NCBI GenBank assembly: GCA_903834835.1
Contig: CAILKO010000025.1
Span: 62,001-126,000 of the forward strand
Source: an uncultured Pseudomonadota bacterium
GTDB lineage: Bacteria; Pseudomonadota; Gammaproteobacteria; Burkholderiales; SG8-39
Direction: 5' to 3'
DNA: 64,000 nt
Both the position numbers and the translations under genes were made by a program. The notes under the pieces are model-generated. The model was not told the DNA's origin. It did no database searches and saw only the letters and a list, made by a program, of their open reading frames with translations. Below, one piece after another: positions 4,660 through 41,801 of the stretch (its first letter is position 1; each line of letters begins with the position of its first letter).

Positions 4660-5640
4660 TCAGTTCTGCGTGATGCCGAGTTTGCGTATGAGATCCGGCC
4701 AGACGGCAAGTTCAGACATCCAGAATCTGCTGGTCTCTTCGATGTTCGATGGCCAGGGATCCAGTCCGAGTTCGATGAAACGCTTACTTACCTCCGCGCT
4801 TGCGACTGTCTTTGCAACTTCGGCGTTCAGCCGCAGAAGAATGTCTCTGGGCGTTCCCGTGGGTGCCCAGATCGCGGTCCAGGTGAGCGCCTCGTAGCCC
4901 GGAGCTGCCTCGGCAAGCGAAGGCACATCCGGAAAACCGGCAATCCGGTTCTTTCCGGTCACGGCGATGGGCTTGAGCCTGCCCCCCTTGATATGGGTAA
5001 TAAACGCATTCGGGCCGGCAACAACCAGCGGAATCTGGCCGCCGAGCATGTCCTGGACCGAGGCAGCGGACCCTTTGTAGTGAATGATCTGGAAGTTAAG
5101 ACCCGATCGTACCTTGAACAGTTCAAGGGAAAGATGATGCGCGGACCCCGCCCCGGAATCGGCAATCGCGACCGCCCCGGGGTTCGCCTTTGCATACTCG
5201 ACGAGTTCCTTCAGGTTCGAATACTTCGCCGAAGGTCCCGCCGCAATCATCATCGATGCCTTGATCAGGCCGGCGACTGCAACGAATTCCTTGGCCGGGT
5301 CGTAAGGCAGGTCCTTCATCAGACCCACAGCGTGGACCGCCGCACCCGGATCCGAGAGAAGCAGCGTGTAGCCGTCCGCCGGTGATTTCGCGACGATATT
5401 CGCGCCGATGGTCCCGCCTGCGCCTGGACGATTGTCAACGACGATCGTCGCACCCAGTCCTGTCTGAACGCCAGGCAAAATGGCACGCGCGATGATGTCT
5501 GCGCCGCCGCCCGGAGGAAAAGGCACGACCATCTTGATGGGCTTGGACGGAAACGCCTGTGCCCCCGCCAGCGAGGACGCGAGCGCGAGGCTGCAGGAAA
5601 CTACGCTTTTGACCAAACTGCCAGCAAAGCTGGTTTTCAT
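4660..5640 (-). CDS. Tripartite tricarboxylate transporter substrate-binding protein (Bug/TctC family)
   Basis: Signal peptide then FPSKPIKMVVPFPPGGGADIIARAI...VDNRPGAGGTIGANIVAKSPADGYTLL. Confidence 0.93.
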   Translation of the reverse strand: MKTSFAGSLVKSVVSCSLALASSLAGAQAFPSKPIKMVVPFPPGGGADIIARAILPGVQTGLGATIVVDNRPGAGGTIGANIVAKSPADGYTLLLSDPGAAVHAVGLMKDLPYDPAKEFVAVAGLIKASMMIAAGPSAKYSNLKELVEYAKANPGAVAIADSGAGSAHHLSLELFKVRSGLNFQIIHYKGSAASVQDMLGGQIPLVVAGPNAFITHIKGGRLKPIAVTGKNRIAGFPDVPSLAEAAPGYEALTWTAIWAPTGTPRDILLRLNAEVAKTVASAEVSKRFIELGLDPWPSNIEETSRFWMSELAVWPDLIRKLGITQN

Positions 5641-5663: not shown

Positions 5664-6482
5664 CTAATAGTCCAGCTTCTCCGGGAACATGGCCGTTCCC
5701 TGGCCGCCCGAGATGATAAAGCCACCATCAACCACCAGATTCGCGCCCGTTACGCTTGCCGCGTCGTCCGACGCCAGATAGAGCGCGGCCAGGGCGACAT
5801 CCCGCGGATGGATCAGGCGGTTCAGAAGATTCGTCTTCTCGAAATACGCGTCACGCTGCGGATTGCTCAGCTCGGGATTCGAGATCACCCCGGGCGACAC
5901 CGTATTCACCCTGACACCTCGTCCGGCACATTCGATGGCAAGCAATTCGCTCATGCGTATGACCGCCGCCTTCATGATGTTGTGCGCCAGGGCGCCGGGC
6001 GCATGACCGAACAGTCCCGCCATTGATCCCATGTTGATGATATTCGCGCCTCTGCGCCCGGCGAGAACCGGCATCGCAGCCTTCGCTGCCATGAGCATGA
6101 GTGTGAGCTCATTGTCGACGGAGAAATTCCACGCCTCTCGCGTGACGGTCTCAAGATTGAACCGTTTGAACATCGCGGCGTTGTTGAACAGGATGTCGAA
6201 GCCGCCATAGCTTTCGACGGCGAAATCGATCAGACGAGGAATGGATTTTTCATCAGAAAGATCCAGCGGATGAAGGGACTTCATCTCGCCCCCCGCTTCG
6301 GCGACCAGCTCGACCGTCTTCGCCCCGGAGACGGGATCAATGTCACAACCTACGACCTTGGCTCCCTGCTCGGCAAAAACAAGCGCGGCAGCGCGACCTA
6401 TACCGCCGCGGCTGCCGCCGCCGGTTCCGGTTATCAGTGCGATTCTGCCTTCCAGCCTGCGTACTGACTGTACCCCCGCCAT
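5664..6482 (-). CDS. SDR family oxidoreductase (atypical, HxxxK at the catalytic position)
   Basis: GRIALITGTGGGSRGGIGRAAALVF, ILFNNAAMF and AHNIMKAAVIRMSELLA. Confidence 0.88.
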   Translation of the reverse strand: MAGVQSVRRLEGRIALITGTGGGSRGGIGRAAALVFAEQGAKVVGCDIDPVSGAKTVELVAEAGGEMKSLHPLDLSDEKSIPRLIDFAVESYGGFDILFNNAAMFKRFNLETVTREAWNFSVDNELTLMLMAAKAAMPVLAGRRGANIINMGSMAGLFGHAPGALAHNIMKAAVIRMSELLAIECAGRGVRVNTVSPGVISNPELSNPQRDAYFEKTNLLNRLIHPRDVALAALYLASDDAASVTGANLVVDGGFIISGGQGTAMFPEKLDY

Positions 6483-6540
6483 ACGACCTCCTCGGTTTTG
6501 GGTTCTTCGGGCCGCGCTCAGCCCTTCCGGGCATTCAGCA

Positions 6541-7617
6541 TCACGGCACTACCGTGATATGCAGCGGGTCCTCGCCCTCCACCTCGCGGCCCAGTGTTCT
6601 GCAGGCGAGATCAAGCTGATCGATGCCGAACTTGTGGCTGTGCATCCGCGAGAAGTCGAACTTCCGGGACTCCAGCACCTTGATCGCCTGCTCGCGCGCC
6701 CAGTCGCTCACGGAGAAGACGCTCTTCAGCGTCAATGCCTTGAACATCAATTCGTCCGGAGAAAGGCCGGGGATTCCGGTCTTGCCCTTCAGACCGGCGA
6801 GCACGATCGTGCCTTGGGGCCGGACAACCTTGATCGCGTCCAGGATCGGCTGCAGATCGGAGGGTGTCGTGTCAACCGCGATATCGACCAGGTCACCCCG
6901 GGTGATTTCCCGTATCGTGTCCACCACGGGCTCCGCCTCGCTGTTGATGACGTGCGTCGCACCGAGCGACAGGGCGAGATCGAGCTTCCATTTGCGGCGC
7001 GCACGACCCACCACGATGATGGTCCGCGCACCGGCCTGCTTCGCGGCAACCACAGCGCCGAGACCGCGCTGGCCGGGTCCGAATATCACCATCGAGTCGC
7101 CCACCTTGGTGCCGGGTGCACGCACCGCCCAGTCAAATCCGGCGCTCAGCGGATTGAAGAGTACTGCGTCCTCGATGTCGAGTTCGTCGGACATGGGATA
7201 CATGTAGGTACTTGGGAGCAACTGGATAAAGTCCGCATATCCGCCCGCGATTCCACCGCTGACCGGAGTCAGTCCGTACATGGTCCGTGAGCTGCAATGC
7301 GTTTCCCTGCCGGACCGGCAGGATCTGCAGGTCCCGCACGTAACGATGGTCTTTACAGCCACCCGCTGTCCGACCTTGACCTGCCATCTGGCCGCAGCGG
7401 TCGGCCCCAGCTTCTCGATGCGACCGACTATCTCGTGCCCTGGTACCAGCGGATAGCCTACCGAGTGAACGCCCGTATAGAGGTCCCAGTCGACGCCACA
7501 CATGCCGTTGCCTTCGACACGAAGGATGGCCCCATCGGCGGCGGGCTCGTCCGGAATCTCGTTCGTCCGCATTTCGATCTGGCGCGGCGCCGTCAACGTG
7601 GCTGCACGCACCTTCAT
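6541..7617 (-). CDS. Zinc-dependent alcohol dehydrogenase (MDR superfamily)
   Basis: GVDWDLYTG, VPGHEIVGRIEKLG and TCGTCRSCRSGRETHC structural zinc cysteines. Confidence 0.88.
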   Translation of the reverse strand: MKVRAATLTAPRQIEMRTNEIPDEPAADGAILRVEGNGMCGVDWDLYTGVHSVGYPLVPGHEIVGRIEKLGPTAAARWQVKVGQRVAVKTIVTCGTCRSCRSGRETHCSSRTMYGLTPVSGGIAGGYADFIQLLPSTYMYPMSDELDIEDAVLFNPLSAGFDWAVRAPGTKVGDSMVIFGPGQRGLGAVVAAKQAGARTIIVVGRARRKWKLDLALSLGATHVINSEAEPVVDTIREITRGDLVDIAVDTTPSDLQPILDAIKVVRPQGTIVLAGLKGKTGIPGLSPDELMFKALTLKSVFSVSDWAREQAIKVLESRKFDFSRMHSHKFGIDQLDLACRTLGREVEGEDPLHITVVP

Positions 7618-8028
7618 GGCCTGTCTCCCCAGTTTCGCGCCGCTGCGTGTTCCAATTTCCGCTTCATGATCCCCCTCCTTCGTTGACTTACGGAGCCCGC
7701 CAGCATAGGACTACCCCATACCTGCGAGCGAGCATTTCATTTTCCGATACCCGCATGATGCACCGGCTGCGTCGCCCTACAAACCGCGCTGCACCGCAGT
7801 ACCCGGTCGCGTCAGGCCGGCCAACCCGCGGAAAATGAAATCGCGTTGACCGTCCCTACCGGCCTAGGGTACTTTGAAGTCCCGAATCATAGCTGTATCG
7901 GCCGCTGACCGAGTGGCCGCACACGCAGCGACTGCCGTCGCGTATGCGAGGGATGTTACGGGCGCCACCAAACGACGTGCGCGAACATTCCCGGGCAGCC
8001 TGCCATATTCGCCAGAGAGGAGAACGAC

Positions 8029-9363
8029 ATGCTCACAGAACTTCAGAACGAAAGACTTTGCAGGGTGGGGCCCAAGGCGCCCATGGGCCGCATGCTGCGC
8101 GAGTACTGGTTCCCGGTCATGCTGTCGGAGGAACTCACCCCCGCCTGCGATCCGAAGCGCCTCACGATACTGGGCGAAAAGCTGGTCGCATTCCGCGACA
8201 GCGCCGGCCGGGTCGGCATCATCGCGGAGGGTTGCCCGCACCGGGGCGCATCCATGGCCATCGCCAAGGTCGAGAACAACGGCCTGCGCTGCCTGTTCCA
8301 CGGCTGGGTCCTCGATGTGCAAGGCAAACTTCTCGAAGTTCCCACGGAACCCGAGGACAGCCCGCGCAAGAACATCGTGCCACCAACCGGCTATCTGGTG
8401 CGTGAAGTTGCCGGGGTCATATGGCTCTTCATGGGGAAAAAAGCTCCACCGCCATTCCCGGATTTCGCCTGGACCCGCATGTCGCCCGATCACGTCATCA
8501 AGATGAAGGCGATCACCGAATGCAACTACGTTCAGAATATCGAGGGCGTAATCGACTCGGTGCATACGAACTTCCTGCACTCGGATGCCCTGCACGGCAC
8601 GGCCGCGAAGGAAGGCGAATCCGGCAAGATCGAGCACGGCGCCGAAAACCGGATCATGCGCCCTTCGGTCGACAAGTCTCCCCGGCTGCAGCTACAGAAC
8701 ACGGCCTACGGGTTCCGCTATGCCGCGATACGCAAACCCATCATCGACCCGGACAAGAATCAGTACATACGCACGACCCTCTGGATTGCGCCAAGCACGA
8801 TCACCTTCTCGGCGGCAAAGGACGAAGGTTTCATGCAGATCATGACGCCTATCGACGACGAGAACACGATTTTCTGGCATTTCCGCTATTCGTATGCGGC
8901 GCCATTCACCGAACTCGAGCACAAGGCCTATCCGAAGTGGGTCGGCCTGTCGCGCGATGAAGAGAATCTCGACGAGAATTTTCGCAGCCGTCGTAACCCC
9001 GGGAACAATTGGCTGCAGGACCGGGCCGCGATGCGTCGCAACGAAACTTTCTCGGGCATCAAGGGCGTCAATATCGAGGACTTTGCCGTCGCCGAAAGCA
9101 TGGGACCGATTGTCGATCGCAGCGTCCAGTATCTCGGGCCGACGGATCTGGCGGTCGCTCAGATGCGGCGCCTGATGCTGCAGTCGCTCGATCGATTCGA
9201 AGCCGGCGAGAAGCCCCTCGGACTCGCCGAGCCGGTCGACCACAGTCGCCTGCGCGCCGAAGAAAAGGTGATCTCCCGATCGACTCCCTGGCAGACAGTA
9301 GGCGCCTTCGCGGGCGAGCCGACCTCGGGCGACAAGTCCGCGGTGATTGAGCATCAGGAGTAA
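8029..9363 (+). CDS. Rieske 2Fe-2S aromatic ring-hydroxylating oxygenase, large subunit (phthalate dioxygenase-like)
   Basis: Rieske ligands CPHRGASM...CLFHGW; SVHTNFLHSD mononuclear iron region. Confidence 0.92.
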   Translation: MLTELQNERLCRVGPKAPMGRMLREYWFPVMLSEELTPACDPKRLTILGEKLVAFRDSAGRVGIIAEGCPHRGASMAIAKVENNGLRCLFHGWVLDVQGKLLEVPTEPEDSPRKNIVPPTGYLVREVAGVIWLFMGKKAPPPFPDFAWTRMSPDHVIKMKAITECNYVQNIEGVIDSVHTNFLHSDALHGTAAKEGESGKIEHGAENRIMRPSVDKSPRLQLQNTAYGFRYAAIRKPIIDPDKNQYIRTTLWIAPSTITFSAAKDEGFMQIMTPIDDENTIFWHFRYSYAAPFTELEHKAYPKWVGLSRDEENLDENFRSRRNPGNNWLQDRAAMRRNETFSGIKGVNIEDFAVAESMGPIVDRSVQYLGPTDLAVAQMRRLMLQSLDRFEAGEKPLGLAEPVDHSRLRAEEKVISRSTPWQTVGAFAGEPTSGDKSAVIEHQE

Positions 9364-10294: not shown

Positions 10295-11899
10295 ATGTCC
10301 ACGATCGAGATACTGCACCCCGCCGGCAAGGTCCAGGACACCGGTTCCATTCAAATGAATGCGATTCCTTCGCTGAAGGACGGGCGGGTGTCGGTCATCG
10401 ACAACGGCAAGCCGAATTTCGCTCGGCTCGCGGCGATGGTCGGAGAGAAGCTGCGTGCATCGCATGGCGTTGCGGAAGTCAGCATTCATCGCAAGGAGAA
10501 TCCGGCGGTCGGAGCGACCACGGCGATTCTCGACGAGGTCTCCGCTTCAGCCGATCTGGTGCTCTGCGGCTCCGCTGATTGAGGGTCCTGCACGTCGTGG
10601 AGTCTCCACGACCTCACTGAAGTCGAACGCCGCGGCACTGCGGCGGTCGCAATCGTTTCGTCTGTGTTCGAAGCGCAGGCTAAGCACGCCTCGCGCACGC
10701 TCGGACTGCCCGGTGCGCGTATGGCGCTGTTTCCCCACCCGCTCGGGGGCAAGTCGGAATCACAGGTGGCGGAGCTCGCGAATCTGGTCCATGCAAATCT
10801 CGTCCATGCATTGACCAGCGTGGCGGCCTCGCCGGTGAAGCCGACCGCCGTTCATTCGGCGCGCCTCGCCGCACCGTCGGATCCAGCTGAACTGCAGCGC
10901 TGGTGCTTCGAGCAAGGCTGGAGCGATGGTTTCCCTGTCATTCCACCGACCCCGGATGCCGTCACGCGCATGGTCGAGGGTTCCGGCCTCCCGTCAGACC
11001 GGCTCGTCGGCGTGGTGCCGCCCCGACTCGGTCTTGCGACCGTCGAGCAGCTGGCGGTGAACGCAGTCATGGCAGGCTGCCAGCCCGCGCACATGCCGGT
11101 GATCATCGCTGCCGTGCAGGCCATGCTCGAACCCCGGTTTAATCTCGGGTCCCTGCAGGCCACCACCCACCCGGTAGCGCCGCTACTCATCGTCCACGGA
11201 CCGATCGCGCAGCGTCTGGGCATCAGTTCCGGCGCCGGACTGTTCGGGCCGGGTGCGATGGCCAATGCCGTAATCGGCCGGGCTATACGACTCATCCTGC
11301 TAAACATCGGCGGCGCGACTCCCGGTGCGGTGGATCGCTCCACCCATGGCGCGCCGAGCAAATTCAGCTTCTGTATCGCCGAAAACATTGCGGCCTCGCC
11401 CTGGGGGTCCTTCATCGAAGATCGCGGACTGCGGCCCGATCAGGACGCAGTGACAGTATTCGGCTGCGAACCGCCGCACAACATCAACGACCACGAGCAC
11501 GGCGATGCGGCGGGAATACTCCGGGTTGCCGCGGACGTGCTGCGTACTCTGGGCATGAACACCTGGTATCTCGGGTGGAAGGGGCGCAAGGAGCTGATGC
11601 TGATTCTCGGCCCGGAGCACGCGGCCAGCATCGCCGCCTCAGGCTGGTCCAGAGCCGACGTGAGACGCTTCCTCTACGAGGCGATCAGCCGGCGCCGGGA
11701 CGAACTGGCCATCGGCGGGATGTACGGCATGCGCGACTGGGGCGCAGACCTGGAAGCACTGGCCGCGCCCGACGCGCTAGTACCCGCAGTGCCGACGCCG
11801 GATGACATCCTGGTGCTCGTGGCGGGCGGCGAAGGCAAGCATTCGGTCGGGCTGCCAAGCTTCGGCGCCACCGTCTCGGTCACCCGTCCGATCGGCTGA
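10295..11899 (+). CDS. UGSC-family selenoprotein candidate 1; TGA at 10580-10582 read as selenocysteine (534 aa)
   Basis: ORFs 10295..10582 and 10664..11899 share one frame with only the TGA between them. Joined translation ...LVLCGSAD-U-GSC-TSWSLHDLTEVERRGTAAVAIVSSVFEAQAKHASRTLG.... Strong RBS (GGAGGAGAAACGC) before ATG 10295. Hairpin with GU loop downstream of the TGA. Confidence 0.87.
10594..10612 (+). promoter_or_regulatory. Candidate bacterial SECIS element for UGSC gene 1
   Basis: GTCGTGGA-GTC-TCCACGAC, 8-bp perfect stem. GU of the loop lies at +20/+21 after the TGA. Confidence 0.72.
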
Positions 11900-11957: not shown

Positions 11958-13679
11958 TCAACGTTGACCGGCTGCAGCGATGCGCTCGTTCCAACCTACA
12001 GGAAGCGCGACCTTCCGGCTTACAGGCGCACCCTGCTCCTGGTTATTCAGGTAGATCTTCGACTGGTTGCGCGCCGGATCTCCGCCGACAACGATGTCCG
12101 TGGAGGCCTCGTTCAGCAGCATCGGCACTCTGCGTGCGAGATCCGAAGAACCGGTGAACAGAGGGTCGAACTTCGCATGTTTCGCCAGCTCCGAGATGAC
12201 GATGCGATTGCCGAATACAGCTTCGGAATAACGCTCAAGCGTGCCGGCATCGATACGCGCGTTGTCGAACAGAAATTTTCGGATATCGTTCTTGCTCCAC
12301 CCCGCGCGCGCAAAACCGCCCGCAACCGACGGACTCATCAGTATGAGCGGATGCCATTGGTTGAAATACAGGCCCGTGATAAACCAGCCCCAGGTCGTGC
12401 CCGCAAGATTGTTGACGATCGGCCACGCGAGATCCTTCGGGTCGGTGCCCGCGCTGTACACGGGCGGGCTGATTGCCAGCACGCTGCGCACCGTGACGAC
12501 GCTGTCCTCGCGCGTGTATCCACGGTCCTCGCGATGGCTGGGCCAGCCTAGCTCGACCACGGCCTTTTCATTCTCGGCCATCGCCACGTTGAACCCGAGG
12601 CCGATGCTTCCCTTGTCCGTCCCGCCCGGGCGCAGACCTGCCACGTTGCGGAAGTAGAGCCGCAGGAAGCGTCCGATGGAGGTGTTCGCGCGCCTGCCAA
12701 CCCGCATGCTGCCGACTTCGGTGTTGAAACCCAGCTGGTCCACCACTGCGCCGCTCACAACGATCATCGGTTCCCAGCCGGGGGTCGAGCCGGCATCCTC
12801 GATGCGGAAATGTGGGTCGCAGATCGCCTCAACCGCCGCGATCAGGACTGGCATGTACTCCGGCCGGCACCCTGCCATCACACCGTTCACCGCCACCGAC
12901 AGCACGCTCGCCTCTCGATACTCGGGCGCGAGCACGCCCAGCACCTTGTTTCGATCGTAATCGGTCCATCTCAGGAATGCCTCGACACGCTCGCTTGTCG
13001 GCGGAACGATGGCCGCACCGTCCGACCACTCGCGAGTGTGGAAAAACTCCTGTACCTCGTCGAAGTTGCCGCGGAACACAATGTCCTCGGGAAAAGGCTC
13101 GGCAGCGGTCTTTGTCTCGACGACTTCAGTTCTGAGATTCTCCAGCGCCGAGCGGAGCAGCACCGTCCGGACCTTCTCCTCGAACTGCGCCGGAGAATCG
13201 AGCGGAATCACGCCCGGGTATTCGGCGATCTGCAGATCCGGTGCGCCGATCGCCTTCCTGATCGCGCGCGCCTGCGCCATGAAGCCCGAGCTTACGATAG
13301 TGACCGCGGGTACCCCCGCGTCCTCGACTGCTTTAGCGGCCCGCAACACGGCGGGCGTGCAACTCCCTCAGGCGCCTACGGCGACGATCGCCGCGTCCAC
13401 CTTCTGGGCGCGCAGCACCGCGGGCAGCGCAGCAATCACCTCACGCTCGTCATGCCCGTGTATGTTGCCGAAGGTCGATGCCGGCAGGAAGGTCGAGCCA
13501 GGATATTTCTCGGCAAGTCCCTCCTGCATGAGCGCGAACATGTCGTCCCCGCGAAACATGTGGTCCCAGACGAGACCGATACGCTTCGCCTGGCCTTCCT
13601 TGAGCCGCGGGTTCATCCGCAGCGCCTTGTTGGTCGAACGGCCAAGCGGCCAGAGAACCTCGAAATTTGATTCGCTCAT
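11958..13679 (-). CDS. UGSC-family selenoprotein candidate 2; TGA at 13368-13370 (minus strand) read as selenocysteine (573 aa)
   Basis: Minus-strand ORFs 13368..13679 and 11958..13349 share one frame, separated only by TGA. Joined translation ...VDAAIVAVGA-U-GSC-TPAVLRAAKAVEDAGVPAVTIVSSGFMAQARAIRKAIG.... C-terminal half resembles UGSC protein 1 (AVNGVMAGCRPEYMPVLIAAVEAI versus AVNAVMAGCQPAHMPVIIAAVQAM). Confidence 0.87.
13339..13356 (-). promoter_or_regulatory. Candidate bacterial SECIS element for UGSC gene 2
   Basis: Minus strand GCCCGC-CGTGTT-GCGGGC. GU of the loop lies at +19/+20 after the TGA. Confidence 0.65.
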
Positions 13680-13716
13680 GCTGACTCCCGGGTGATGTGG
13701 GGAAACCCCGAAAAGT

Positions 13717-14778
13717 TTACTTCTGCGCTGCAGGGGTGCCGAGATTGCTTTGCCAGAGCGGCAGAAATTTCTTCAACAGCGCTGAATCCAGCGGCCCCTT
13801 TTTGACCGCTTCGAGCGCTTCGTCCAGCTGCCTGTCGTCGGACACACCCGTTATGATCGAGGTTACATCCTCGTGCATCAGGATAAAGCGGTACGCGGCG
13901 ACCGCGAGCGTGTCACCGGTCTCCTCGGCGAGAAAGCGGAAGTTCCGCGCCCGCGCGACTTCGGCACGCATCATCTCCCTGAATGCCGGATTTGTCGAGA
14001 AGTCTCCACCCGCGAGCGGATGGCGCACTCCGAATTCGCTCGCCACGCTCGCGTCCGACAGCGTGCCTCCGGCCAGAGGACGGATGATGCCCGTCCCGAC
14101 CCGGTTGGCGCGCGCCGCGCCGAAGATGCCGTCGTAACGCTGATCGACCTGCAAGGCGTTCAACCCGTCCACACCCGCCGTCGGATTGGTGAGGTTGTAA
14201 CGGATGTTGATCCAGCGCAGCAGCCCCGTCTCGAGTAGCTGCCGCGTCAGGCGGTTGTCCGCGAATTCGCAGGACAGACCGATGTGAAGAACCTTGCCCG
14301 CCTTCTGCAGCCGGGCGAGACCCTCAAGCGCGCCGTTCGGTCCGAGGTAATCGTCCATTTCCATTGTTGCCCAGCGTCGGCGCGGACCCATGGCTTCGGC
14401 GTAGAGCGTGCCCGGAGGATTGTGTATCTGCACGAAGTGCACCGCATCCATTCCAAGCCGTATGAGACTGTCTTCGACGGTCTGCACAACGCGCTTGGCG
14501 ACGTTCTGCTTGTGCTCGTCGAAAATCTCGACTTTGGTCGTGACATACGCATGCTTCGGCTTCAGTTCGCGCAGCACGCTGCCCAGATTCGCCTCGGCCC
14601 GGCCGCGGCCGTACTCCGGCGACGTATCGAAATGGTTGATGCCTTCCTCGAAGGCGCGCGCGACCGACTTCGTCAGATCGGTGAAATTTCCCCAGACGAA
14701 CAAACCGGCGTTGTCACCGGTCCCGAGGCTGAGTTCCGAGAGGTCGATATCCGTACCCGGTACGCGGCGATATTTCAT
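13717..14778 (-). CDS. Aldo/keto reductase
   Basis: MKYRRVPGTDIDLSELSLGTGDNAGLF...NHFDTSPEYGRGRAEANLGSVLREL...YVTTKVEI. Confidence 0.9.
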   Translation of the reverse strand: MKYRRVPGTDIDLSELSLGTGDNAGLFVWGNFTDLTKSVARAFEEGINHFDTSPEYGRGRAEANLGSVLRELKPKHAYVTTKVEIFDEHKQNVAKRVVQTVEDSLIRLGMDAVHFVQIHNPPGTLYAEAMGPRRRWATMEMDDYLGPNGALEGLARLQKAGKVLHIGLSCEFADNRLTRQLLETGLLRWINIRYNLTNPTAGVDGLNALQVDQRYDGIFGAARANRVGTGIIRPLAGGTLSDASVASEFGVRHPLAGGDFSTNPAFREMMRAEVARARNFRFLAEETGDTLAVAAYRFILMHEDVTSIITGVSDDRQLDEALEAVKKGPLDSALLKKFLPLWQSNLGTPAAQK

Positions 14779-14880: not shown

Positions 14881-16101
14881 TCAGCGCCGCACACGCGGTG
14901 CCGCGCCGCTGTCCTGGAGTCGCTCAATGTCCTCGTCCGTGTAGCCAAGCTCCCTCAGCAGCTCTGCGGAATGCTGCGCGAATGACGGAGGAGCATCGCC
15001 GGGGATGCCCGGCGTCCCGTACAGCCGCGAGGGCGAGCGCACGCCGGTGTAGCCCTTCCGTTCGATACGCAACGCGCGGTGTTGCGCGTGCGGCTGCGCG
15101 AAAGCGTCGGGCACCGAATTAACCACCCCAGCCGGAACACCCGCCTTCATCAGTGCCTCGCAGAGCGGCGCTGCAGCGACGCCCTTCAGCACAAGTTCGA
15201 TCTCGGCCTTCAGTGCATCTCGATTGCGCAGCCGCTGCGCATTCGATGCGTAGCGCGGGTCATTCGGCCAGTCCGCGCGACCGATATGCAGGCAGAACCG
15301 CTTGAACTGCCCGTCGTTCAGGATGCCGATGAAGATATCGCCGTCGCTTACCCGGTATTTGTCATAGGGCGCAATGTTCGGATGCGCGCTGCCCAGCAAT
15401 CCGGGTGCCTTGCCGGAGGCCAGCCAGTTTGCCGCCTGGGGAATGAGCAGACTGAATGCGGTGTCGAACAGCGTAGCTTCGACACGTTGGCCGCGGCCGG
15501 TCTGGTCACGCACTCGAAGCGCCATCAGAATGCCTGTGAGCGCCACGTAGCCCGTAAGGTGGTCGACCAGCGGAATGCCGACCCGGGTCGGCCCGGACTG
15601 CGGGTCGCCATTCACGCTCATGAGACCGCACATCGCCTGCAGCACCGCATCGTAGCCCGGCAACGCACCCATGGGCCCGTCGGCACCGAAACCGCTGATG
15701 TTGCAATACACGAGCCGCGGAAATTCGGCCGCCAGATCCTGTTCGTAGCCCAGGCCCCAGCGCTCCATCGTGCCTGGGAGGAAGTTCTCGATCAGCACAT
15801 CCGCCTTGGCGAGCATTCTCCGCAACACCGCGCGCGCTTCTGGGAGAGCAAGATCCAGGCTCATGGCCCGCTTGCCGCGGTTCAGCGAAGAGAAGTAGGC
15901 GGCCTCTCCCGCGGCGTTGAACGGCGGTCCGAGCGTGCGGGTCTCATCGCCTGACGGCGGTTCGACCTTGATCACGTCCGCACCATGATCGGAAAGAATC
16001 TGCGTGCACAGCGGACCGGCAAGCACGCGAGTGAGATCTACGACGACAAGGCCATCCAGGGCGCCGCGCGAACCTCCGGACGCCTTGCTCGTCGTGCTCA
16101 T
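14881..16101 (-). CDS. CaiB/BaiF family CoA transferase
   Basis: LDGLVVVDLTRVLAGPLCTQILSDHGADVIKVEPPSGDETRTLGPPF. Confidence 0.94.
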   Translation of the reverse strand: MSTTSKASGGSRGALDGLVVVDLTRVLAGPLCTQILSDHGADVIKVEPPSGDETRTLGPPFNAAGEAAYFSSLNRGKRAMSLDLALPEARAVLRRMLAKADVLIENFLPGTMERWGLGYEQDLAAEFPRLVYCNISGFGADGPMGALPGYDAVLQAMCGLMSVNGDPQSGPTRVGIPLVDHLTGYVALTGILMALRVRDQTGRGQRVEATLFDTAFSLLIPQAANWLASGKAPGLLGSAHPNIAPYDKYRVSDGDIFIGILNDGQFKRFCLHIGRADWPNDPRYASNAQRLRNRDALKAEIELVLKGVAAAPLCEALMKAGVPAGVVNSVPDAFAQPHAQHRALRIERKGYTGVRSPSRLYGTPGIPGDAPPSFAQHSAELLRELGYTDEDIERLQDSGAAPRVRR

Positions 16102-16111
16102 GTTCGCAGGA

Positions 16112-17248
16112 TCAGACCTTCACCGGGAGCCGGACCACTCCGGTCCCGACAACGGAGAGTTCGTCGTTCTGATTGCGTCCCTCCTGCTCGATCTCCACGA
16201 GATGCTCGCCGTTCTCGACATACTTCCGCTTGACCCGTGCCTTGATGAACAGAATGTCGCCTTCCGGGTTGTGACGCCGCACCTGGGAATTCGACTTGCG
16301 CAGGAAACCGTCGTCGCCCATCCAGTTCGTGAGCTGGTGCGTGAGCCAGGACACGCGCTCGGGGCCGTAGTCGTAGGCGCCGGGGGCGCCGACCTCAAGC
16401 GCAAACTCTTCTTCCCAGTGCACGCGCTCAGGTACGTCGGGAATGCCGAAGCGGTTCTCGATGCCGAGACCCTGATGGACGTCGATCATTTTCCAGGCAA
16501 GCTTGTTGGCGCGTATGTAGAGGCCGCCCCAGCCCTGGGCATAGGCAATGAAGCCGGTGACTGTCATAGGCCCCTTGAGCAGTACGGGAAGCTCTTCGCC
16601 TTCCTTCACATCGCCCCAGTAGCGCGGCGTCGTTCCGCGAACTTCCTCGTTGCGGTAAAGCTTGTAGACCTCGGCCAGCTCTTCACGCGTGTAACGACGC
16701 GGGCCCTTGCCGCGCACATGGGTATATTTCGTGCCCTGTTCCGCCGCATGATTGCGCTCGGTCCGGAAGCACCAGCTGTCCGCTTCGGCCACCTTGTCAC
16801 CCTGCTGATTGAAGAAGTCGACGTGGTAGGTCTGCTGGATCGCGCGGCCCGCGAATCGGGTCTGATGCTCTACCAGGTCCTTGAGATAGGCCTCGGTGGA
16901 GATTTCGTCGTTGCGCTTCACATTCTTGTACCAGGTCCAGTTCGCACCCGACCACATCGCGTGTATGCCGGGCAGACCGCCCACGTAGCCGGAGACGATG
17001 CGGCTGGTCGAAAACAGAAAGCTGGGCAGCGCGATGATTCCTCCATGCGCACTTTTTGCCGCGTAGGCGGGATCACACCACAGGGGATTGTCGTCGCCGA
17101 TGCCGTGTGCATAGTGGCGGATGTTGTCGCGCGTCGCCTCGTGGCACCATGGCTCGAGCGTGTCACCGATCTTCACGCCAATGCGCCGGCGCAGCTCTTC
17201 CATCCCGGCTTCGGTGATGCGGGGAAACTCTCTGGGCGTCTTTGTCAT
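16112..17248 (-). CDS. MaoC family (acyl) dehydratase
   Basis: Hotdog/MaoC pattern: DTLEPWCHEATRDNIRHYAHGIGDDNPLWCDPAYA and second-half WMGDDGFLRKSNSQVRRHNPEGDILFIKARVKRKY. Confidence 0.82.
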   Translation of the reverse strand: MTKTPREFPRITEAGMEELRRRIGVKIGDTLEPWCHEATRDNIRHYAHGIGDDNPLWCDPAYAAKSAHGGIIALPSFLFSTSRIVSGYVGGLPGIHAMWSGANWTWYKNVKRNDEISTEAYLKDLVEHQTRFAGRAIQQTYHVDFFNQQGDKVAEADSWCFRTERNHAAEQGTKYTHVRGKGPRRYTREELAEVYKLYRNEEVRGTTPRYWGDVKEGEELPVLLKGPMTVTGFIAYAQGWGGLYIRANKLAWKMIDVHQGLGIENRFGIPDVPERVHWEEEFALEVGAPGAYDYGPERVSWLTHQLTNWMGDDGFLRKSNSQVRRHNPEGDILFIKARVKRKYVENGEHLVEIEQEGRNQNDELSVVGTGVVRLPVKV

Positions 17249-17269: not shown

Positions 17270-18826
17270 CTATGAAACGGCGGCGGCGTTCTTTTCCTGT
17301 TCGCGCAGCACCTTGCGGTTCACCTTGCCTGCGGGCGTCTTCGGCAACTCGGGAACGACCGCGATGTGCCGCGGATACTCATGCTGGCTCAGCTTGGTCC
17401 GGACCAGATCCTGGATCTCCTTCGTGAACGCTTCGCTCTGCGCGCGCGGGCTGACCACGAAAGCCTTGACCACCTGCCCGCGCAGTTCATCGGGAACGCC
17501 GATCGCAGCCGCCTCCTTCACATCCGGATGCGCGAGGATCGCGTTCTCGATCTCGACGGCACTCATGGTCCAGCCGGCCGAGATGATCACATCGTCGGCC
17601 CTGCCTGCATGATAGAAGTAGCCCTCGTCATCCACACGGCCCAGGTCGCGCGTAGGTATCCATTTGCCGCGACGTCGGATCATGAGCTGCCCCGTCACAC
17701 CGGCCGCACAGGGCGTGCCGTCATCGCTCTGTACCTGCACCTCGCCGCCGGGTGTGGGCTTGCCCAGCGAGCCGGACTTTACGGTGAAGTCCGCCGCGCC
17801 CGGATAGTTCACCAGCACCACCCCGATCTCGGTCGTGCCATACATGCTGCACACTTCCAGGCCGAAGGTCTCGCGCACGAAGCCGGCGGTTTCGGGATCG
17901 ATGGGTTCACCGGTGAAGGAGAGCTTCGTGAAAAAGTACTTGTACGCCGGACCGCGCCCGGAATTGCGCATCATGCGGTAGTGCGTGGCCGCAGCCGACA
18001 TATTGCTGAAGCGGTGATCGTGCAGCGCCCTCAGCAGGCGGTCCGGATCGAAGCGGCCTGCATAAGCGCCGATGGTGAGTCCGAGCGCAAGCGGCGCGAA
18101 GGTTCCGTGCCAGAGACCGTGCCCCCATGCGGGAGACGACGGGCAGATGAAGCGATCTCCGGGACGCAGGCCGGTACCGTAGAGCGCCGCCACCATGAGC
18201 GTGACAATCGTGCGGTGGCTGTGCTTCACGGCTTCGGGCAACTCGCGCGTCGTGCCCGAGGTGTACTGAAACACGGCGAGACTGTCCGCACGCGTCTCGA
18301 TCCGGAATTTCTCCGGCAGGCCGCGCAAGGTGGCAAACAGCATGTCGTCGAATACGACAACTCTCAGGCCGTCGATCGCGCGCGCATTCGCAGCGCTCTC
18401 CGGGCTGGCCACGAGCATCGCGGGCGTACAGTCCTGCACGCGCAAGCGCACGCCGTCCGGACCGAACAGCGTGAACAGGGGCACTGCGATCGCCCCGGCC
18501 TTCAGAGCGCCGAACATGGCCACATAGAAGGCGCGCGAAGGCTCCAGCATGATCGCCACCCTGTCGCCAGCCGCCACGCCGTTGGCTCGAAGGTAGTGAG
18601 CGAAGCGCGAAGAATCCGCCGAGAGTTCGTCGTAGCGGATGATTTCGTCACGGCCGTCTGCGTGCACCACGATCACGGCATCACGCCCGGAACTTGCGTG
18701 CCGGTCCACGCACTCGTGCGCGATGTTCAGAAACTCGGCGTTGCCGTCGAACAGCTCCCACAGCCTGTCCCGGGAAAAGTGCTCCAGGGCGTCGGCGTAG
18801 CTGGTGTAGTCCGTGAGCTTGGTCAT
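17270..18826 (-). CDS. Acyl-CoA synthetase / AMP-dependent ligase
   Basis: FQYTSGTTRELPEAVKHSHRT, MYGTTEIGVVLVNYPG, GRADDVIISAGWTMSAVEIENAI and KTPAGKVNRKVLR. Confidence 0.92.
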   Translation of the reverse strand: MTKLTDYTSYADALEHFSRDRLWELFDGNAEFLNIAHECVDRHASSGRDAVIVVHADGRDEIIRYDELSADSSRFAHYLRANGVAAGDRVAIMLEPSRAFYVAMFGALKAGAIAVPLFTLFGPDGVRLRVQDCTPAMLVASPESAANARAIDGLRVVVFDDMLFATLRGLPEKFRIETRADSLAVFQYTSGTTRELPEAVKHSHRTIVTLMVAALYGTGLRPGDRFICPSSPAWGHGLWHGTFAPLALGLTIGAYAGRFDPDRLLRALHDHRFSNMSAAATHYRMMRNSGRGPAYKYFFTKLSFTGEPIDPETAGFVRETFGLEVCSMYGTTEIGVVLVNYPGAADFTVKSGSLGKPTPGGEVQVQSDDGTPCAAGVTGQLMIRRRGKWIPTRDLGRVDDEGYFYHAGRADDVIISAGWTMSAVEIENAILAHPDVKEAAAIGVPDELRGQVVKAFVVSPRAQSEAFTKEIQDLVRTKLSQHEYPRHIAVVPELPKTPAGKVNRKVLREQEKNAAAVS

Positions 18827-18895
18827 GCGTACGGTGCGGGGATCGGAAGTTGCCGATGATGCCGTTCCGCGCAATAAATTGTCAATTGGATCACC

Positions 18896-18914
18896 AGGTT
18901 GTATAGGTACAACT
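18896..18914. promoter_or_regulatory. Palindrome upstream of the acyl-CoA synthetase gene
   Basis: AGGTTGTA-TAGG-TACAACT; core GTTGTA/TACAAC is perfect. Confidence 0.5.
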
Positions 18915-18940
18915 TGCGACAGACGCAGACCTGCGTTCAA

Positions 18941-32753: not shown

Positions 32754-33803
32754 TCAGGTGGTGGCGAACAATTCGCGCCACGCGGAGAGAATGAGCGCCA
32801 TCTCGTCGGCGGGCAGCGGCCCCTGGACGGAGGCCCGGATGGCGCTCTCGAGATGCGACAGTTCGGAATAGCCGGCCACAGTGGTCGTGATGCGCGGATC
32901 CGTGATGTTGAAGCGATAGGCCTTGGCGGCCATTTCGTCCGTCGATCCGATGCCAAGGCGCTCGACCAGCCGCAGGGCGAGTTCGACTTCGCGCCGATAC
33001 TCGTCGGCATTGCGCGTGAAGCCGCCGCCCGCAAGCGGGTGGCGCGTGAAGTTGCGCGCCGCTGCCGACATGAGCGCACCGCCGCCCATCGCGCGAAAGC
33101 CGGAGATCGCCACGCCGTGGGCGGCCGCCATACCAGCCATGCCGCGGTAGTCCGCCGGGCCGTTGACGCGTCCCGCAGTCTGCTCCAGCAACGACGAGGG
33201 GTTGAGCATGTTGAGCCAGATGTTCAGCACCGACACCGCCGGGTGCGCGACAACGGGCGCAAGGCCCGCCGGTTCGGCGTCCTCGCAGGCGATGCCGCCC
33301 AGACGCGCCTTGCCCGCTGCGATCACCTGCGCGACGCCTTCGAAGGCGCCACCCTCGCACAGATAGTCGTCGGCCACGAAGGGCGTCCAGGTGGAGCGCT
33401 CCCAGTCGTTCTCCAGGCGCGGTGCGTTGTGGATCATCAGCACATCGATATGATCCATGCCGAGGCGGCGCAACGACTCGTCGACCGAGGCGACGACCTT
33501 GCGCGCCATCCGATGGCGATCGGCGGGCATGACTTCGACCTTGCTCGTGACGAGCACTCGGTTGCGCTTGCCCTTCAGCGCGCGTCCGAGGTTCTCCTCC
33601 GCACGGCCGCGGCCGTAATCCGGCGACGTATCGAAGTAGTTCATGCCCGAGTCAATCGCGACGTCGACCGCACGCTGACGCTCGGCCGGCGTGCCGAGCA
33701 CCATGAGCCCGGCGTTGTCGCCGGTGCCGAAGCCGAGAATCGAAGCCTCGATGCCGCTGCGGCCGAGGGGCCGGCGCGGCAGACCGCCTGGTGTCGCGCT
33801 CAT
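32754..33803 (-). CDS. Aldo/keto reductase
   Basis: LPRRPLGRSGIEASILGFGTGDNAGLMVLG...MNYFDTSPDYGRGRAEENLGRALKG. Paralog of 13717..14778. Confidence 0.9.
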   Translation of the reverse strand: MSATPGGLPRRPLGRSGIEASILGFGTGDNAGLMVLGTPAERQRAVDVAIDSGMNYFDTSPDYGRGRAEENLGRALKGKRNRVLVTSKVEVMPADRHRMARKVVASVDESLRRLGMDHIDVLMIHNAPRLENDWERSTWTPFVADDYLCEGGAFEGVAQVIAAGKARLGGIACEDAEPAGLAPVVAHPAVSVLNIWLNMLNPSSLLEQTAGRVNGPADYRGMAGMAAAHGVAISGFRAMGGGALMSAAARNFTRHPLAGGGFTRNADEYRREVELALRLVERLGIGSTDEMAAKAYRFNITDPRITTTVAGYSELSHLESAIRASVQGPLPADEMALILSAWRELFATT

Positions 33804-35086
33804 GCGGGGGAAGTCCAGCGGATTTCCTCGGCCGGATAGAGTTCGCTCCAGTCGCGTTCGATGGGCAGCAGGCCGTCGCGCGCCTTCAGCGCGCGGTAGC
33901 GGATGCTGCGTGCGAACTCGGGCGCCGCCGCGCCCTGACCCGCTGCCGCTTCCAGCAGCTTCTTGCGGAAGTGAATGATCGCCAGATCCGCCGGCCCGAG
34001 ATGCTCGCGCGTGCGGTCGACGACCGGCCCCATGCTCTCCTGCACGACGATGTCCTGCAGGTTCACGCCGGTCAGGCCGGTGAAGGACTTCCCGGCGGCC
34101 ATCGCCGCGCGATCCTGCCCCCAGAGCGGACGCGCGGAGGCGCGCAGGCGACCCGCCTCGTCGATGTCGGTTCCCGGCTGCATGCCCGACCAGGCGGGAA
34201 GATTCAGGTTGTCCATGCGCTGTTCGGTCGAGAACCGGACGTAGAAGAAATGCGTATGCTGATCGTCCATCGGCACGAAGATCTGCAGATCACCGATGGA
34301 GCCGCCGGAGGGGAAGGTCACATAGGCCGGAAACGCAAAGGCCGTGGCGCGGACATAGACCAGCTTTTCCGGATCGACCGTGGGCTTGCGGATCGCGCCG
34401 TAGATGAAGCCGCAGTCGGTGTCGCGCACCTTGATGCGCGGATGGCGGTCGGTGGAGGGTCGCTTGAACTGCAGCGCCATGCCGGTGCCGATCGCCGTGC
34501 TCGCCTCGGCGGTCTGCTTGCTCACGATCTCGTCCGAATGCAGGTGCGAGGAATGCGAGGAATCGATCGCGCCCTCGAGTGACTGCACCCAGTTGGAATT
34601 GCACACCGCGTTCACCACCACGACATGCTCCGCGGGCAGATTCAGCCAGGGCAGATCGGGGAAGGGCGCGCGGTCCGCGTCGTTCTCGCAGATATTCATC
34701 CAGATGAGGCCGCCCGCTTCCTTCAGCTTTGCCGTGCGAAGCTGAATGACCGGTCGCCCGCCGCTCTCGCGCTCGTTCGGCGCCTCGGCGACGCGGCCCT
34801 GGGTATCCATGAGCCAGCCGTGGTAGATACAGCGCAGCCCGCCGTCTTCCACGCGCGCGAGCGTGAGCGAGGCCATGCGATGCGGACAGCTCTCCTCCAT
34901 CGCGAAAATTTCCTTGCCGCGCCGGGCGACAACAAAGGTCTCGCCGAGCAGCCGCGTCTTGTGCGTGCAGCGGTCCGCCAGCTCTGCGGACTTCATGATC
35001 GGGTACCAGTAGCGCGCGAGCACCGCGTGCAGCGGCTTGCCCGCGACCACGCCCGTCAGGGCTTCATTCTCCGCGTGGGTCATCAT
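33800..35086 (-). CDS. Rieske 2Fe-2S aromatic ring-hydroxylating oxygenase, large subunit
   Basis: CPHRMASLTLARVEDGGLRCIYHGWLMD and SSHSSHLHSDEI. Confidence 0.92.
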   Translation of the reverse strand: MMTHAENEALTGVVAGKPLHAVLARYWYPIMKSAELADRCTHKTRLLGETFVVARRGKEIFAMEESCPHRMASLTLARVEDGGLRCIYHGWLMDTQGRVAEAPNERESGGRPVIQLRTAKLKEAGGLIWMNICENDADRAPFPDLPWLNLPAEHVVVVNAVCNSNWVQSLEGAIDSSHSSHLHSDEIVSKQTAEASTAIGTGMALQFKRPSTDRHPRIKVRDTDCGFIYGAIRKPTVDPEKLVYVRATAFAFPAYVTFPSGGSIGDLQIFVPMDDQHTHFFYVRFSTEQRMDNLNLPAWSGMQPGTDIDEAGRLRASARPLWGQDRAAMAAGKSFTGLTGVNLQDIVVQESMGPVVDRTREHLGPADLAIIHFRKKLLEAAAGQGAAAPEFARSIRYRALKARDGLLPIERDWSELYPAEEIRWTSPA

Positions 35087-35111
35087 TTTCTCGCTCCTCG
35101 TTTTCCCGGCC

Positions 35112-36149
35112 CTACTCGGCGCGCGCGCCGGTGGCCTTGATCACCGCCGCCCAGCGCTCCCTGTCTTCCTTCAGGAACACCGCCATCTCCTCCGGCGTGT
35201 TCGCCGTCGGAATCATGCTCAGTTCGCCCAGCCGCTTTGCGACATCAGGCTGCTTCACCACATCGGAGATGAAGGCCTGCCACTTGCGCGCGATCGGCAT
35301 CGGCAACCCCGGTGGCCCGACCATGCCCTGCCAGATGAGCGCCTGGAACCCCGGCAGGAACTCCGCGATCGCCGGCACCTGCGCGAAATCCGGATGCCGC
35401 TTCAGGCCGCCCGTGCCGAGCAGCTTCAACTTGCCGGCTTTCACATGCGGGCCCGCGGTCGCAAGCTCGCCAAACAGCAGATCCACCTGCCCGGAGAGCG
35501 TGTCGGCGAGCGCCGGCCCGGTGCCCTTGTAGGGCACATGAACCATCTTCACGCCCGCCATGTTGCTGAACAGCTCCGCAGTCAGATGCGCGCCGTTGCC
35601 GATGCCCTGGGAGGCATACATCAGCTTTCCAGGATTGGCGCGCGCGTAGGCGATGAATTCCTGTACCGAATTGACGGCCAGTTTGGGATGCACGAGCAGC
35701 ACGCTGTACCCGGTGCACATGACCGTCACCGGCGTCATGAGATCCGGGTCGAAATTCATCTTCGCGTAGAGCGCCTTGTTGGATACCATCGGCGGGTTCG
35801 CGGTAAAGAGCATCGTGTAGCCGTCGGGCTGCGCGCGGAACACGGCCTCGGTGCCCACGTTGCCGCCCGCACCGACACGGTTCTCGACGATCATCGACTG
35901 ACCCCAGCGCGCCTGCACGCGCTCGGAAAGCAGCCGTGCGAGAAAGTCCGACCCACCGCCCGGCGGATAGGGAACGATCACCCGGATCGCCTGATTCGGA
36001 TAGTTGCTCGCATCGGACTGGGCAAGCGCAGGCGCCGCGACCGCGATGCCGATCATGCCCGCCACGCGCAGCATTTTTCTGAACACTTTGCCGCCCATGC
36101 CCTCGCCTCCTCGGGTGAATTCGCCTGATAGGACCCGCAGTATAGTCAA
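35112..36149 (-). CDS. Tripartite tricarboxylate transporter substrate-binding protein (Bug/TctC family)
   Basis: NYPNQAIRVIVPYPPGGGSDFLARLLSERV...VENRVGAGGNVGTEAVFRAQPDGYTMLF. Start may be the internal ATG at 36098. Confidence 0.9.
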   Translation of the reverse strand: MTILRVLSGEFTRGGEGMGGKVFRKMLRVAGMIGIAVAAPALAQSDASNYPNQAIRVIVPYPPGGGSDFLARLLSERVQARWGQSMIVENRVGAGGNVGTEAVFRAQPDGYTMLFTANPPMVSNKALYAKMNFDPDLMTPVTVMCTGYSVLLVHPKLAVNSVQEFIAYARANPGKLMYASQGIGNGAHLTAELFSNMAGVKMVHVPYKGTGPALADTLSGQVDLLFGELATAGPHVKAGKLKLLGTGGLKRHPDFAQVPAIAEFLPGFQALIWQGMVGPPGLPMPIARKWQAFISDVVKQPDVAKRLGELSMIPTANTPEEMAVFLKEDRERWAAVIKATGARAE

Positions 36150-36224
36150 TCCGTTCCCATCGGGTCGCCGCCTTGGATTGTCGCGTTCAATTCAATTCAA
36201 TTGAGCGAGACGTGTCGCGGGCAA

Positions 36225-37208
36225 CTAGTGCAGCGCGGGCTTCTTCATCAGCAGGTTGCGGTCCGATGACTTCAGCATCACCTCCAGGCGCGAGCCCTTG
36301 CGATGCACGGTAAGCGGGATCTCCACGCCGGCCGGGCCGCAGGCCCAGATCGCGCGGAACAATTCAACCAGCGTCTTCACCGGCCGTCCCGCCACCTCGA
36401 GCACCACGTCGCCGAGCCGCACGCCGGCGCGATCAGCCGGGCCGCTCGCAGCGAGCCCGCCCACGACCGGGTGCCCCTCGACCTCCTGGGCGAAGAGGCC
36501 CACCCAGGGACGCGGCGGACCGTCCGAGCGCCCGAGCCGCACAAGGTCATCGAGTATCGGTTCGAGCAGGTCGATCGGGATCGCCATGTTGCCCTGCTCG
36601 GGTTTGCCCTCGGTGAGTTCCTGCAGCAGCAGCGAACCGATGCCCACCAGCATGCCGTCGCGATCGACCACGGCGGTGCCGCCCCACTGCGGATGCGCGG
36701 GCGCGCTGAACAGCGCATCGTCGAGCACATATTCCCAGTAGCCGGCGAATTCGCGCCGTGCGACAAGCCTGGCCTTCAGTGCATGCGCGCGGCCTCCATG
36801 TCCGGCGACGATGAGCGGATCGCCGAGACCGAGCGTGCGCGCGCTGCCGCGCGGCAGCACCGGCGCGGCGAGCGGCGCGAGCGGCAGCACGAGGCCGAAG
36901 CCCGTAGCGCCGTCATGCGCAAGCGGATGCGCCGGCACCGCCTGGCCCCGGTTGTTGGTGAGCCAGACCGAGCTTGCCTCCGTGACGAGGTAGCCCACGG
37001 TGAGCACCAGCCCGTCCTCGCGGATCACCACACCGCTGCCGAGGCGCTCCGTCCCGAGGAACGAGGCCGTATACGCGTCCTCGGGAACCTCGCTGCGCAC
37101 CTGGACGACAGCGTCGAGCACCTTGCCAAGGTCGAAGGCGAGGTCTTCGGCATGCGGCTGCAGCGATTCGGGGAACGACCAGTTCTTCTGGGTGGCAGAT
37201 CGGGACAT
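36225..37208 (-). CDS. HtrA/Deg-like trypsin-fold protein with PDZ domain, predicted catalytically inactive
   Basis: LGSGVVIREDGLVLTVGYLV, HPQWGGTAVVDRDGMLVGIGSLL, then PDZ GGLAASGPADRAGVRLGDVVLEVAGRPVKTLVEL. Confidence 0.82.
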   Translation of the reverse strand: MSRSATQKNWSFPESLQPHAEDLAFDLGKVLDAVVQVRSEVPEDAYTASFLGTERLGSGVVIREDGLVLTVGYLVTEASSVWLTNNRGQAVPAHPLAHDGATGFGLVLPLAPLAAPVLPRGSARTLGLGDPLIVAGHGGRAHALKARLVARREFAGYWEYVLDDALFSAPAHPQWGGTAVVDRDGMLVGIGSLLLQELTEGKPEQGNMAIPIDLLEPILDDLVRLGRSDGPPRPWVGLFAQEVEGHPVVGGLAASGPADRAGVRLGDVVLEVAGRPVKTLVELFRAIWACGPAGVEIPLTVHRKGSRLEVMLKSSDRNLLMKKPALH

Positions 37209-37750
37209 GGGAAGGTACCTCGGGAAAACGGCAGGCGAAGAGCCTGTATCGCGAGCGTAGATGACAGCCTTGCAAAGAGCAACCTTCAGGCAGATCGCGC
37301 ACGTCGGCGACCGCTGACTCGAGACCCGAATGTTGCGTTGCACCATGAAATATATGGAGAAATTCCGAAAAACCCTTTGCCTTGTGCGGTTCCATCGGCT
37401 GATAATCCGCCGGTCCCGACGCAGTGCCAAGAAGACTGATATCGAAATTCAGGAGGGGGAGCGAAGGGCGATGAATCCGGGGTAACGCCAGGATGCATAC
37501 ATTAGGGTCGCCATGTGCGGCCCTAGTTTTTTGTAGCGCCCGAACCGCAAGCTGCGCCGGACCGCGCGAGCTTCGCCGGACCGTACAGGATTCGGGGGAT
37601 TGCGTCAGGTTCGCAGCACACGGCCGGTCGCGGCGACACCGGTCGATAGAATGCGCGCTCTTCCCCTGCCGCGCCCCACCGAAAGCACGCCCCTTGTCCC
37701 AGCCCTCGGGCCTCTTCGCATCGCTTTTGAAACTGCGCGCATTCGAGTCG

Positions 37751-39496: not shown

Positions 39497-39501
39497 CCCT
39501 C

Positions 39502-40320: not shown

Positions 40321-40412
40321 GGTGCGGTCCTCGGCTGGTGTCGGCGCGCAGGCCGGACGGTGGCCGACATCCTAGCAGCCACGCACGGCAATCTTCCGGT
40401 GTAGATTGCGCC

Positions 40413-41777: not shown

Positions 41778-41801
41778 AGTCGAGCGTGCCGCAGGGTCCG
41801 C

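Follow-up and report, generated by a model that had tools for sequence, protein, structure and literature searches.

The gene on the minus strand at 11958..13679 of the window, i.e., the whole 64,000-nucleotide stretch of DNA analysed here, is a genuine selenoprotein gene, and there is hardly any doubt that the UGA at its codon 104 is decoded as selenocysteine (Sec). It is a genuine member of an already known selenoprotein family, that of the UGSC proteins. Apparently new are the obligate partner domain, the context of thioredoxin, GrdB and Bug proteins, and the size of the expansion. The product of this gene, called gene 2 below, is likely a thioredoxin-driven redox enzyme. The features that define its reading frame are the following.

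11958..13679, minus strand: gene 2, a fusion of a UGSC selenoprotein with an unnamed C-terminal domain, 573 aa, Sec being residue 104
13368..13370, minus strand: TGA codon for the selenocysteine U104 in the U-G-S-C motif, conserved in relatives, with C107 as the resolving Cys
13685..13689, minus strand: Shine-Dalgarno-like GGGAG, 5' of the gene 2 ATG
10295..11899, plus strand: gene 1, a second UGSC selenoprotein fusion with its TGA at 10580-10582, convergent with gene 2

Translated from 13679 to 11958 on the minus strand, gene 2 forms a single frame with one internal TGA, i.e., codon 104, and a terminal TGA. A sequence-only reading had joined the minus-strand ORFs 13368..13679 and 11958..13349 into one frame, and translation confirms that only the TGA at 13370-13368 interrupts it. 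The junction proposed there, ...DAAIVAVGA-U-GSC-TPAVLRAAKAVEDAGVPAVTIVSSGF..., matches the translation exactly; the motif stands in the context GA-U-GSC-TPAVLRAAKAVEDAG. The GC content per codon position is alike across the TGA (0.67/0.43/0.79 before and 0.64/0.47/0.77 after). The split frame is not due to chance, because both halves align end to end, at 45-48% identity, with single proteins of related genomes, each interrupted by one TGA at the equivalent position. Gene 1 and gene 2 are separated by a gap of 58 nt, and they are the only UGSC loci found in the 3.37-Mb assembly by a search with Pfam family PF24696, each containing a TGA. The UGSC domain of gene 2 scores 102.7 bits against PF24696, the gathering cut-off being 25. 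Against NF041046, which has an NCBIfam equivalog cut-off of 125, gene 2 stays below with 62.3 bits, and gene 1 reaches 99.6 bits.

At least 110 distinct relatives retain the TGA at the UGSC codon; the others nearly always have a Cys codon there. The motifs found among 124 distinct UGSC domains were UGSC (87), UGAC (13), UGGC (12) and UGTC (3), and, without Sec, CGSC (5), CGAC (1), CGLC (1) and MGTS (2). The earlier argument that a second instance of the motif makes a random nonsense mutation very unlikely holds, and gene 1 is real as well. One might still suppose a pseudogene, or a sequencing error that turned a Cys codon into TGA, given that the source assembly is fragmented (74 contigs, 88.9% complete). 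This can hardly be credited, as the TGA is common to two genes of the window and to the relatives in many genomes, and as the hairpin described below is absent from the Cys forms.

The same reading had made its claim depend on the presence of the selenocysteine machinery, and all of it was found in the source genome. The tRNA-Sec scores 72.2 bits (gathering score 47), whilst selA, selB and selD each exceed their curated cut-offs; tRNA-Sec, selA and selB are contiguous on one contig, C49. Among 399 sampled genomes belonging to the order of the source genome, 41 have UGSC over the cut-off. Of these, 39 also had selA over the cut-off, as compared with 69 of the 358 genomes without UGSC (Fisher odds ratio 82, p ~1e-22). 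Machinery, conserved TGA, hairpin and co-occurrence with selA together back the identification of gene 2 as a UGSC-motif selenoprotein.

Just downstream of the UGA in both genes lies a candidate SECIS element.

13339..13356, minus strand: SECIS hairpin of gene 2, 6 bp (GCCCGC/GCGGGC) with loop CGUGUU, starting 14 nt from the U of the UGA
10594..10612, plus strand: SECIS hairpin of gene 1, GUCGUGGA/UCCACGAC, with the spacing of gene 2 and another register

The hairpin was compared between 96 non-redundant TGA members and seven Cys members of the family. In the TGA members, a hairpin at +14/+15 (the stretch 14-32 nt from the U) is formed with a mean pairing probability of ~0.94, and the mean hairpin energy from +14 is -9.1 kcal/mol vs. 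-1.3 +/- 1.1 over 160 other offsets. No hairpin was found at this position in the seven Cys members. Because the stretch is coding, a synonymous-codon control was used, in which codons were swapped for synonymous ones 30 times per gene. It gave an observed value of -10.6 against an expected one of -4.6 in the 96 TGA members, the hairpin being stronger than expected in 94 of them, and -3.2 against -2.5 in the Cys members. Covariation was also evident: the pairs 17-29 and 20-26 are formed in 95-96% of the sequences, whereas 50-55% would be expected from column composition. The subgroup of gene 2 has its own register, GCCCGC-CGUGUU-GCGGGC, in which 98.8% of the cells are paired, as compared with at most 49% when the partner is slid, and two pairs in this clade show compensatory changes on both sides. 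Single-sequence RNA folding was not significant for gene 1 or gene 2 (z 0.98 for gene 2, in GC-rich sequence), and the synonymous test of the gene 2 hairpin alone gave a p of 0.055. Since the hairpin of gene 2 is unexceptional by itself, the case for a SECIS element rests on the relatives. These indicate that the hairpin is selected at the RNA level, at a distance from the UGA that is compatible with SelB. The spacing equals that of the SelB-binding mini-hairpin of E. coli fdhF.

Wherever bacteria decode UGA, termination is a competing outcome. This competition would suit an account in which the TGA of gene 2 is mostly a true stop, so that a 103-residue fragment is made and read-through yields only small amounts of the full-length protein, or in which the UGA is a selenium-dependent switch. 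With the UGA kept in more than 110 diverged genes, coding sequence conserved on both of its sides and a selected hairpin, such an account is very improbable. Decoding as Sec, which is the reading followed here, was also traced through the family.

Cys occupies the Sec codon in 13 of 114 non-redundant UGSC domains, from which an unrooted tree was built. Gene 2 was placed in a set of 27 Sec-only, fused rows (SH-aLRT 97). The Cys forms are scattered among the Sec forms, in haloarchaea, actinobacteria, some Proteobacteria and Treponema; a full-protein search of genome contigs gave one match, a Treponema. Parsimony requires ten Sec/Cys switches on this tree, and at least four are forced by well-supported branches. 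The question of whether Sec or Cys is ancestral, posed along with the first reading, is thereby answered in part: the scatter of the Cys forms suggests repeated Sec-to-Cys change as the simpler reading of this unrooted tree. Fused and split arrangements of the UGSC and C-terminal domains changed state ~9 times on the same tree.

Several members are located on plasmids. The conjugative IncP plasmid p2-T1 of Acidovorax sp. T1 (L032) carries a TGA-containing UGSC fusion near IS elements, which is annotated merely as a 97-residue hypothetical protein ending at the TGA. Similarly, the annotation of two Paracoccus plasmids (L036 and L199) breaks a TGA-type UGSC gene into small hypothetical proteins; in L036, an annotated selB is found ~3 kb from this gene. 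Two UGSC-like fusions (L037:5755-7479 and L038:5758-7443), on Sporomusa and Vibrio plasmids, have the Sec/Cys replaced (D-M-G-T-S) and the C-terminal domain intact, and adjoin aconitase X/DUF126 genes. These two members possibly are non-redox proteins or work differently.

Gene 2 shares its N-terminal domain and its U-G-S-C motif with the UGSC family (PF24696 / NF041046; Zhang and Gladyshev, 2008, PMC2398784), which, like gene 2, mostly has Sec in the wild. Its score against NF041046 marks a fused subfamily that has diverged and uses a SECIS register of its own.

13158..13661, minus strand: UGSC domain PF24696 (residues 7-174), Rossmann-like alpha/beta in the AF2 model, with remote similarity to the Sec region of GrdB/PrdB

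The 2008 paper describes the UGSC protein computationally, with the function unassigned and a thioredoxin-like fold as a guess, and already lists a 'UGSC/Unknown_1' fusion (PMC2398784), whose second part may correspond to the C-terminal domain. In contrast to that guess, the AlphaFold2 model of gene 2 (pLDDT 91, pTM 0.92) is Rossmann-like: the UGSC domain is predicted to consist of alternating beta/alpha elements with five strands, and its structural matches are Rossmann-like. On this model, the UGSC domain does not have a thioredoxin fold. Sec104 is placed between a strand (96-102) and a helix (107-120).

Remote similarity was detected to the selenoproteins of another class of reductases. Gene 2 matches the NCBIfam models of GrdF, PrdB, GrdB and GrdH with E-values of 4e-5 to 6e-4, in their Sec-bearing region. 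Among the 41 UGSC members compared, 12 match GrdB (best 1.1e-5) and 11 match PrdB. In profile alignments, which have weak scores and involve three PF07355 proteins, U104/C107 fall on the CxxC of these proteins. Thus, GrdB, GrdF, GrdH and PrdB of the glycine, sarcosine, betaine and D-proline reductases (PF07355) have a UxxC at the same place as gene 2, in a remotely similar domain. The scores of gene 2 against the GrdB/PrdB models (PF07355, TIGR01917, TIGR01918 and TIGR04483) are 19-22 bits, as compared with cut-offs of 65-800, and a PF07355 search of the source genome gave nothing over the cut-off. The similarities support common descent of the Sec domains, but not membership of gene 2 in the GrdB/PrdB family, as its scores fall below these cut-offs and its partner is an unnamed domain in place of GrdE/PrdA. 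No GrdA/GrdC/GrdD-like genes were recognised beside gene 2, nor was a GrdE/PrdA-like pyruvoyl-forming gene, and the C-terminal domain has no Pfam match. The hosts differ as well: UGSC is found in Pseudomonadota, Actinomycetota and haloarchaea, so that amino-acid-fermenting anaerobes of the GrdB/PrdB type are not its sole hosts.

11961..13082, minus strand: C-terminal domain (about residues 200-573, ~375 residues), obligate partner of UGSC, with no Pfam family and no confident fold match

The C-terminal domain showed no match to Pfam at E-values up to 5, and sequence searches of the PDB (phmmer and profile) found nothing. Its association with UGSC is strict. Among 143 distinct UGSC domains, 63 are fused to it, another 77 are encoded no more than 1 kb away from it on its own strand, and the remaining three are cut by the end of a contig or stretch; hence, all 140 that can be evaluated have it. 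As it is fused or adjacent in 140 of 140 cases, UGSC and the C-terminal domain would seem to make up one enzyme between them, whether encoded as a fusion or by separate genes. Near-invariant residues in this domain are D220, G221, T228, T299, N332, G336-R337, N345, E369, W379 and G387. Pyruvoyl formation at C271 was considered as a general mechanism and rejected, since several members lack C271 (AGG, AGA and AGV). Two split C-terminal-domain proteins encoded upstream of a UGSC gene (L026 and L028) have an extra N-terminal thioredoxin-like part and a PGCGSK motif. The thioredoxin-like part of L028 contains GCETC, and one of the two proteins gives a sub-threshold match to Pfam thioredoxin.

Modelled alone, the C-terminal domain reached a pLDDT of 88.6, and Foldseek found no confident structural relative for either the full model or the isolated domain. 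For the latter, class I fumarase accounts for every match with E < 0.001, the best at 1.5e-4, and Toblerone-fold amide hydrolases come next. From these matches, one could argue that the C-terminal domain, its fold loosely resembling that of class I fumarase or of cyclic amide hydrolases, is a lyase or hydrolase which the Sec/Cys domain merely protects, repairs or switches; the two members with M for U/C and S for C, which keep the whole C-terminal domain, point the same way. However, the fumarase matches have TM-scores of just ~0.24 and an rmsd of 17 A, so the fold match is not secure, Pfam offers no similarity, and the U/C pair is kept in ~98% of the UGSC members, which makes this explanation quite unlikely.

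The gene neighbourhoods point to thioredoxin. Thioredoxin reductase (TrxR) or TrxR-like flavoproteins are encoded within three genes of the UGSC or C-terminal-domain genes at 11 of the compared loci, and none was seen farther out. These neighbours keep a CxxC and score 190-403 bits against TIGR01292. With Cdom for the C-terminal-domain gene, the order is trxB-trxA-Cdom-UGSC in Arthrobacter, Cdom-UGSC-trxB in Roseovarius and UGSC-Cdom-flavoprotein in Haloterrigena, and in Variovorax SRS16 trxB lies upstream. Among the genes most closely related to gene 2, three (L168, L169 and L170; 47% identical) are divergent to selA-selB-TrxR-like, an arrangement that looks like a dedicated locus for Sec plus reductase. 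The TrxR-like flavoprotein after selA-selB in L170 scores 231 bits against TIGR01292, which is below the cut-off. Beside gene 2 itself, and beside the sel locus of the source genome, no TrxR-like gene was recognised. Overall, the thioredoxin system is supported as the probable electron donor by the neighbourhoods of relatives. In glycine reductase, electrons come from thioredoxin reductase and thioredoxin (PMC3091704).

The surroundings of gene 2 and gene 1 in the window are catabolic.

13717..14778, minus strand: aldo/keto reductase on the strand of gene 2, 37 nt upstream
14881..16101, minus strand: CoA-transferase family III (CaiB-like), in the same-strand run of gene 2
16112..17248, minus strand: FAS1-like dehydratase-region protein, in the same run
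17270..18940, minus strand: AMP-forming acyl-CoA ligase, in the same run
4660..5640, minus strand: TctC/Bug-type solute-binding protein, of a class over-represented beside UGSC genes elsewhere

Gene 2 is the last gene of this operon-like acyl-CoA run, and gene 1 is surrounded by genes for a LigXa-like Rieske oxygenase, LigB, Bug and dehydrogenases. TctC/Bug solute-binding proteins account for 23% of the genes adjoining UGSC vs. 7% of those at least six genes away. The window also contains two similar catabolic sets (5664-9363 and 32754-42770), each with a LigXa-like Rieske oxygenase, an SDR and a TctC/Bug protein; besides the aldo/keto reductase next to gene 2, another is found at 32754-33803.

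The following mechanism may be proposed. SelB would deliver Sec-tRNA to UGA104, aided by the computed hairpin just downstream, and the product would be a two-domain redox enzyme. In its Rossmann-like UGSC domain, Sec104 and Cys107 would form a redox-active pair where a helix begins; judging from remote similarity, GrdB/PrdB have their UxxC at this position. The C-terminal domain would complete the enzyme and is the probable site of substrate binding, as suggested by its obligate association with UGSC and by the conserved D220, T228, N332, R337, N345, E369 and W379. The selenolate might then attack a small organic acid or CoA ester held by this domain and cleave it reductively, after which Cys107 would close an Se-S bond, and thioredoxin together with an NADPH thioredoxin reductase-like flavoprotein would re-reduce the pair. 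We infer the cleavage and recycling steps from the gene neighbours and from analogy to glycine and proline reductase. Within the window, the enzyme would serve the surrounding genes for acyl-CoA and aromatic acid catabolism. A range of substrates has a parallel in GrdB-type proteins, of which a genome may have several substrate-specific B proteins and which accept the non-amine fluoroacetate (PMC10838667). The view that gene 2 encodes a Sec reductase of small organic acids, GrdB/PrdB-like and driven by thioredoxin, is about evenly balanced between right and wrong.

Many Sec UxxC proteins are thiol oxidoreductases. On that ground, gene 2 could also be a real selenoprotein with the same thioredoxin-driven Sec/Cys pair that acts as a peroxidase or as a thiol/sulfur redox protein, in a protective or regulatory role, and does not cleave a substrate. 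The trx neighbours fit this function just as well, and a peroxidase activity of GrdB is the subject of a paper cited in PMC3091704. Still, tens of diverged paralogues in a genome and an obligate 375-residue partner domain are hardly what a protective role would call for, nor would uptake and acyl-CoA genes be expected as neighbours. Such a role is therefore considered rather unlikely, and the reductase reading is retained below.

The paralogues are most numerous in a genome of the same order, G665 (5.7 Mb, 98% complete, 2% contamination, 330 contigs), which has 58 UGSC matches, of which 51 contain exactly one TGA (L046, L069-L117 and L142). The identity to the closest paralogue among 46 distinct UGSC domains compared in G665 has a median of 63% and a maximum of 74%. 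Strain mixing was rejected as the source of the 51 copies, because no pair among the 46 exceeds 74% identity. Another six genomes contain 18-26 UGSC matches apiece. The largest whole bacterial selenoproteomes reported number 57 and 63 (2026 review, PMC13188914), which the at least 51 diverged Sec paralogues of this one family in G665 appear to rival. The TctC/Bug solute-binding proteins, too, have grown into a large lineage-specific paralogue family, among others in Bordetella and Rhodoplanes (PMC5994714). In the present loci, Bug genes are clustered with those for UGSC; the main text of that paper makes no mention of selenoproteins. Unlike the expansion of the Bug receptors (PMC5994714), that of UGSC would be enzymatic and cytoplasmic.

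The original reading had proposed no function; the unnamed C-terminal domain, the link to thioredoxin and that to GrdB/PrdB go beyond it. With UGSC linked to an unnamed domain, thioredoxin reductase and carboxylate receptors, and at a remote level to glycine and proline reductase, a testable enzyme hypothesis takes the place of an unassigned function. In its broadest form, UGSC and its obligate C-terminal domain would constitute a distinct class of thioredoxin-driven, GrdB/PrdB-like Sec reductases for small organic acids in aerobic-type Proteobacteria, with Cys in actinobacteria and haloarchaea, and its expansion alongside the Bug carboxylate receptors would have given one genome at least 51 diverged Sec paralogues; we hold this tentatively, with somewhat less than even confidence. 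If true, selenium would serve a wide range of organic-acid reductions outside the amino-acid-fermenting anaerobes. Genomes in which one selenoprotein family has 51 diverged members would also shift the view of how many selenoproteins a bacterium can maintain.
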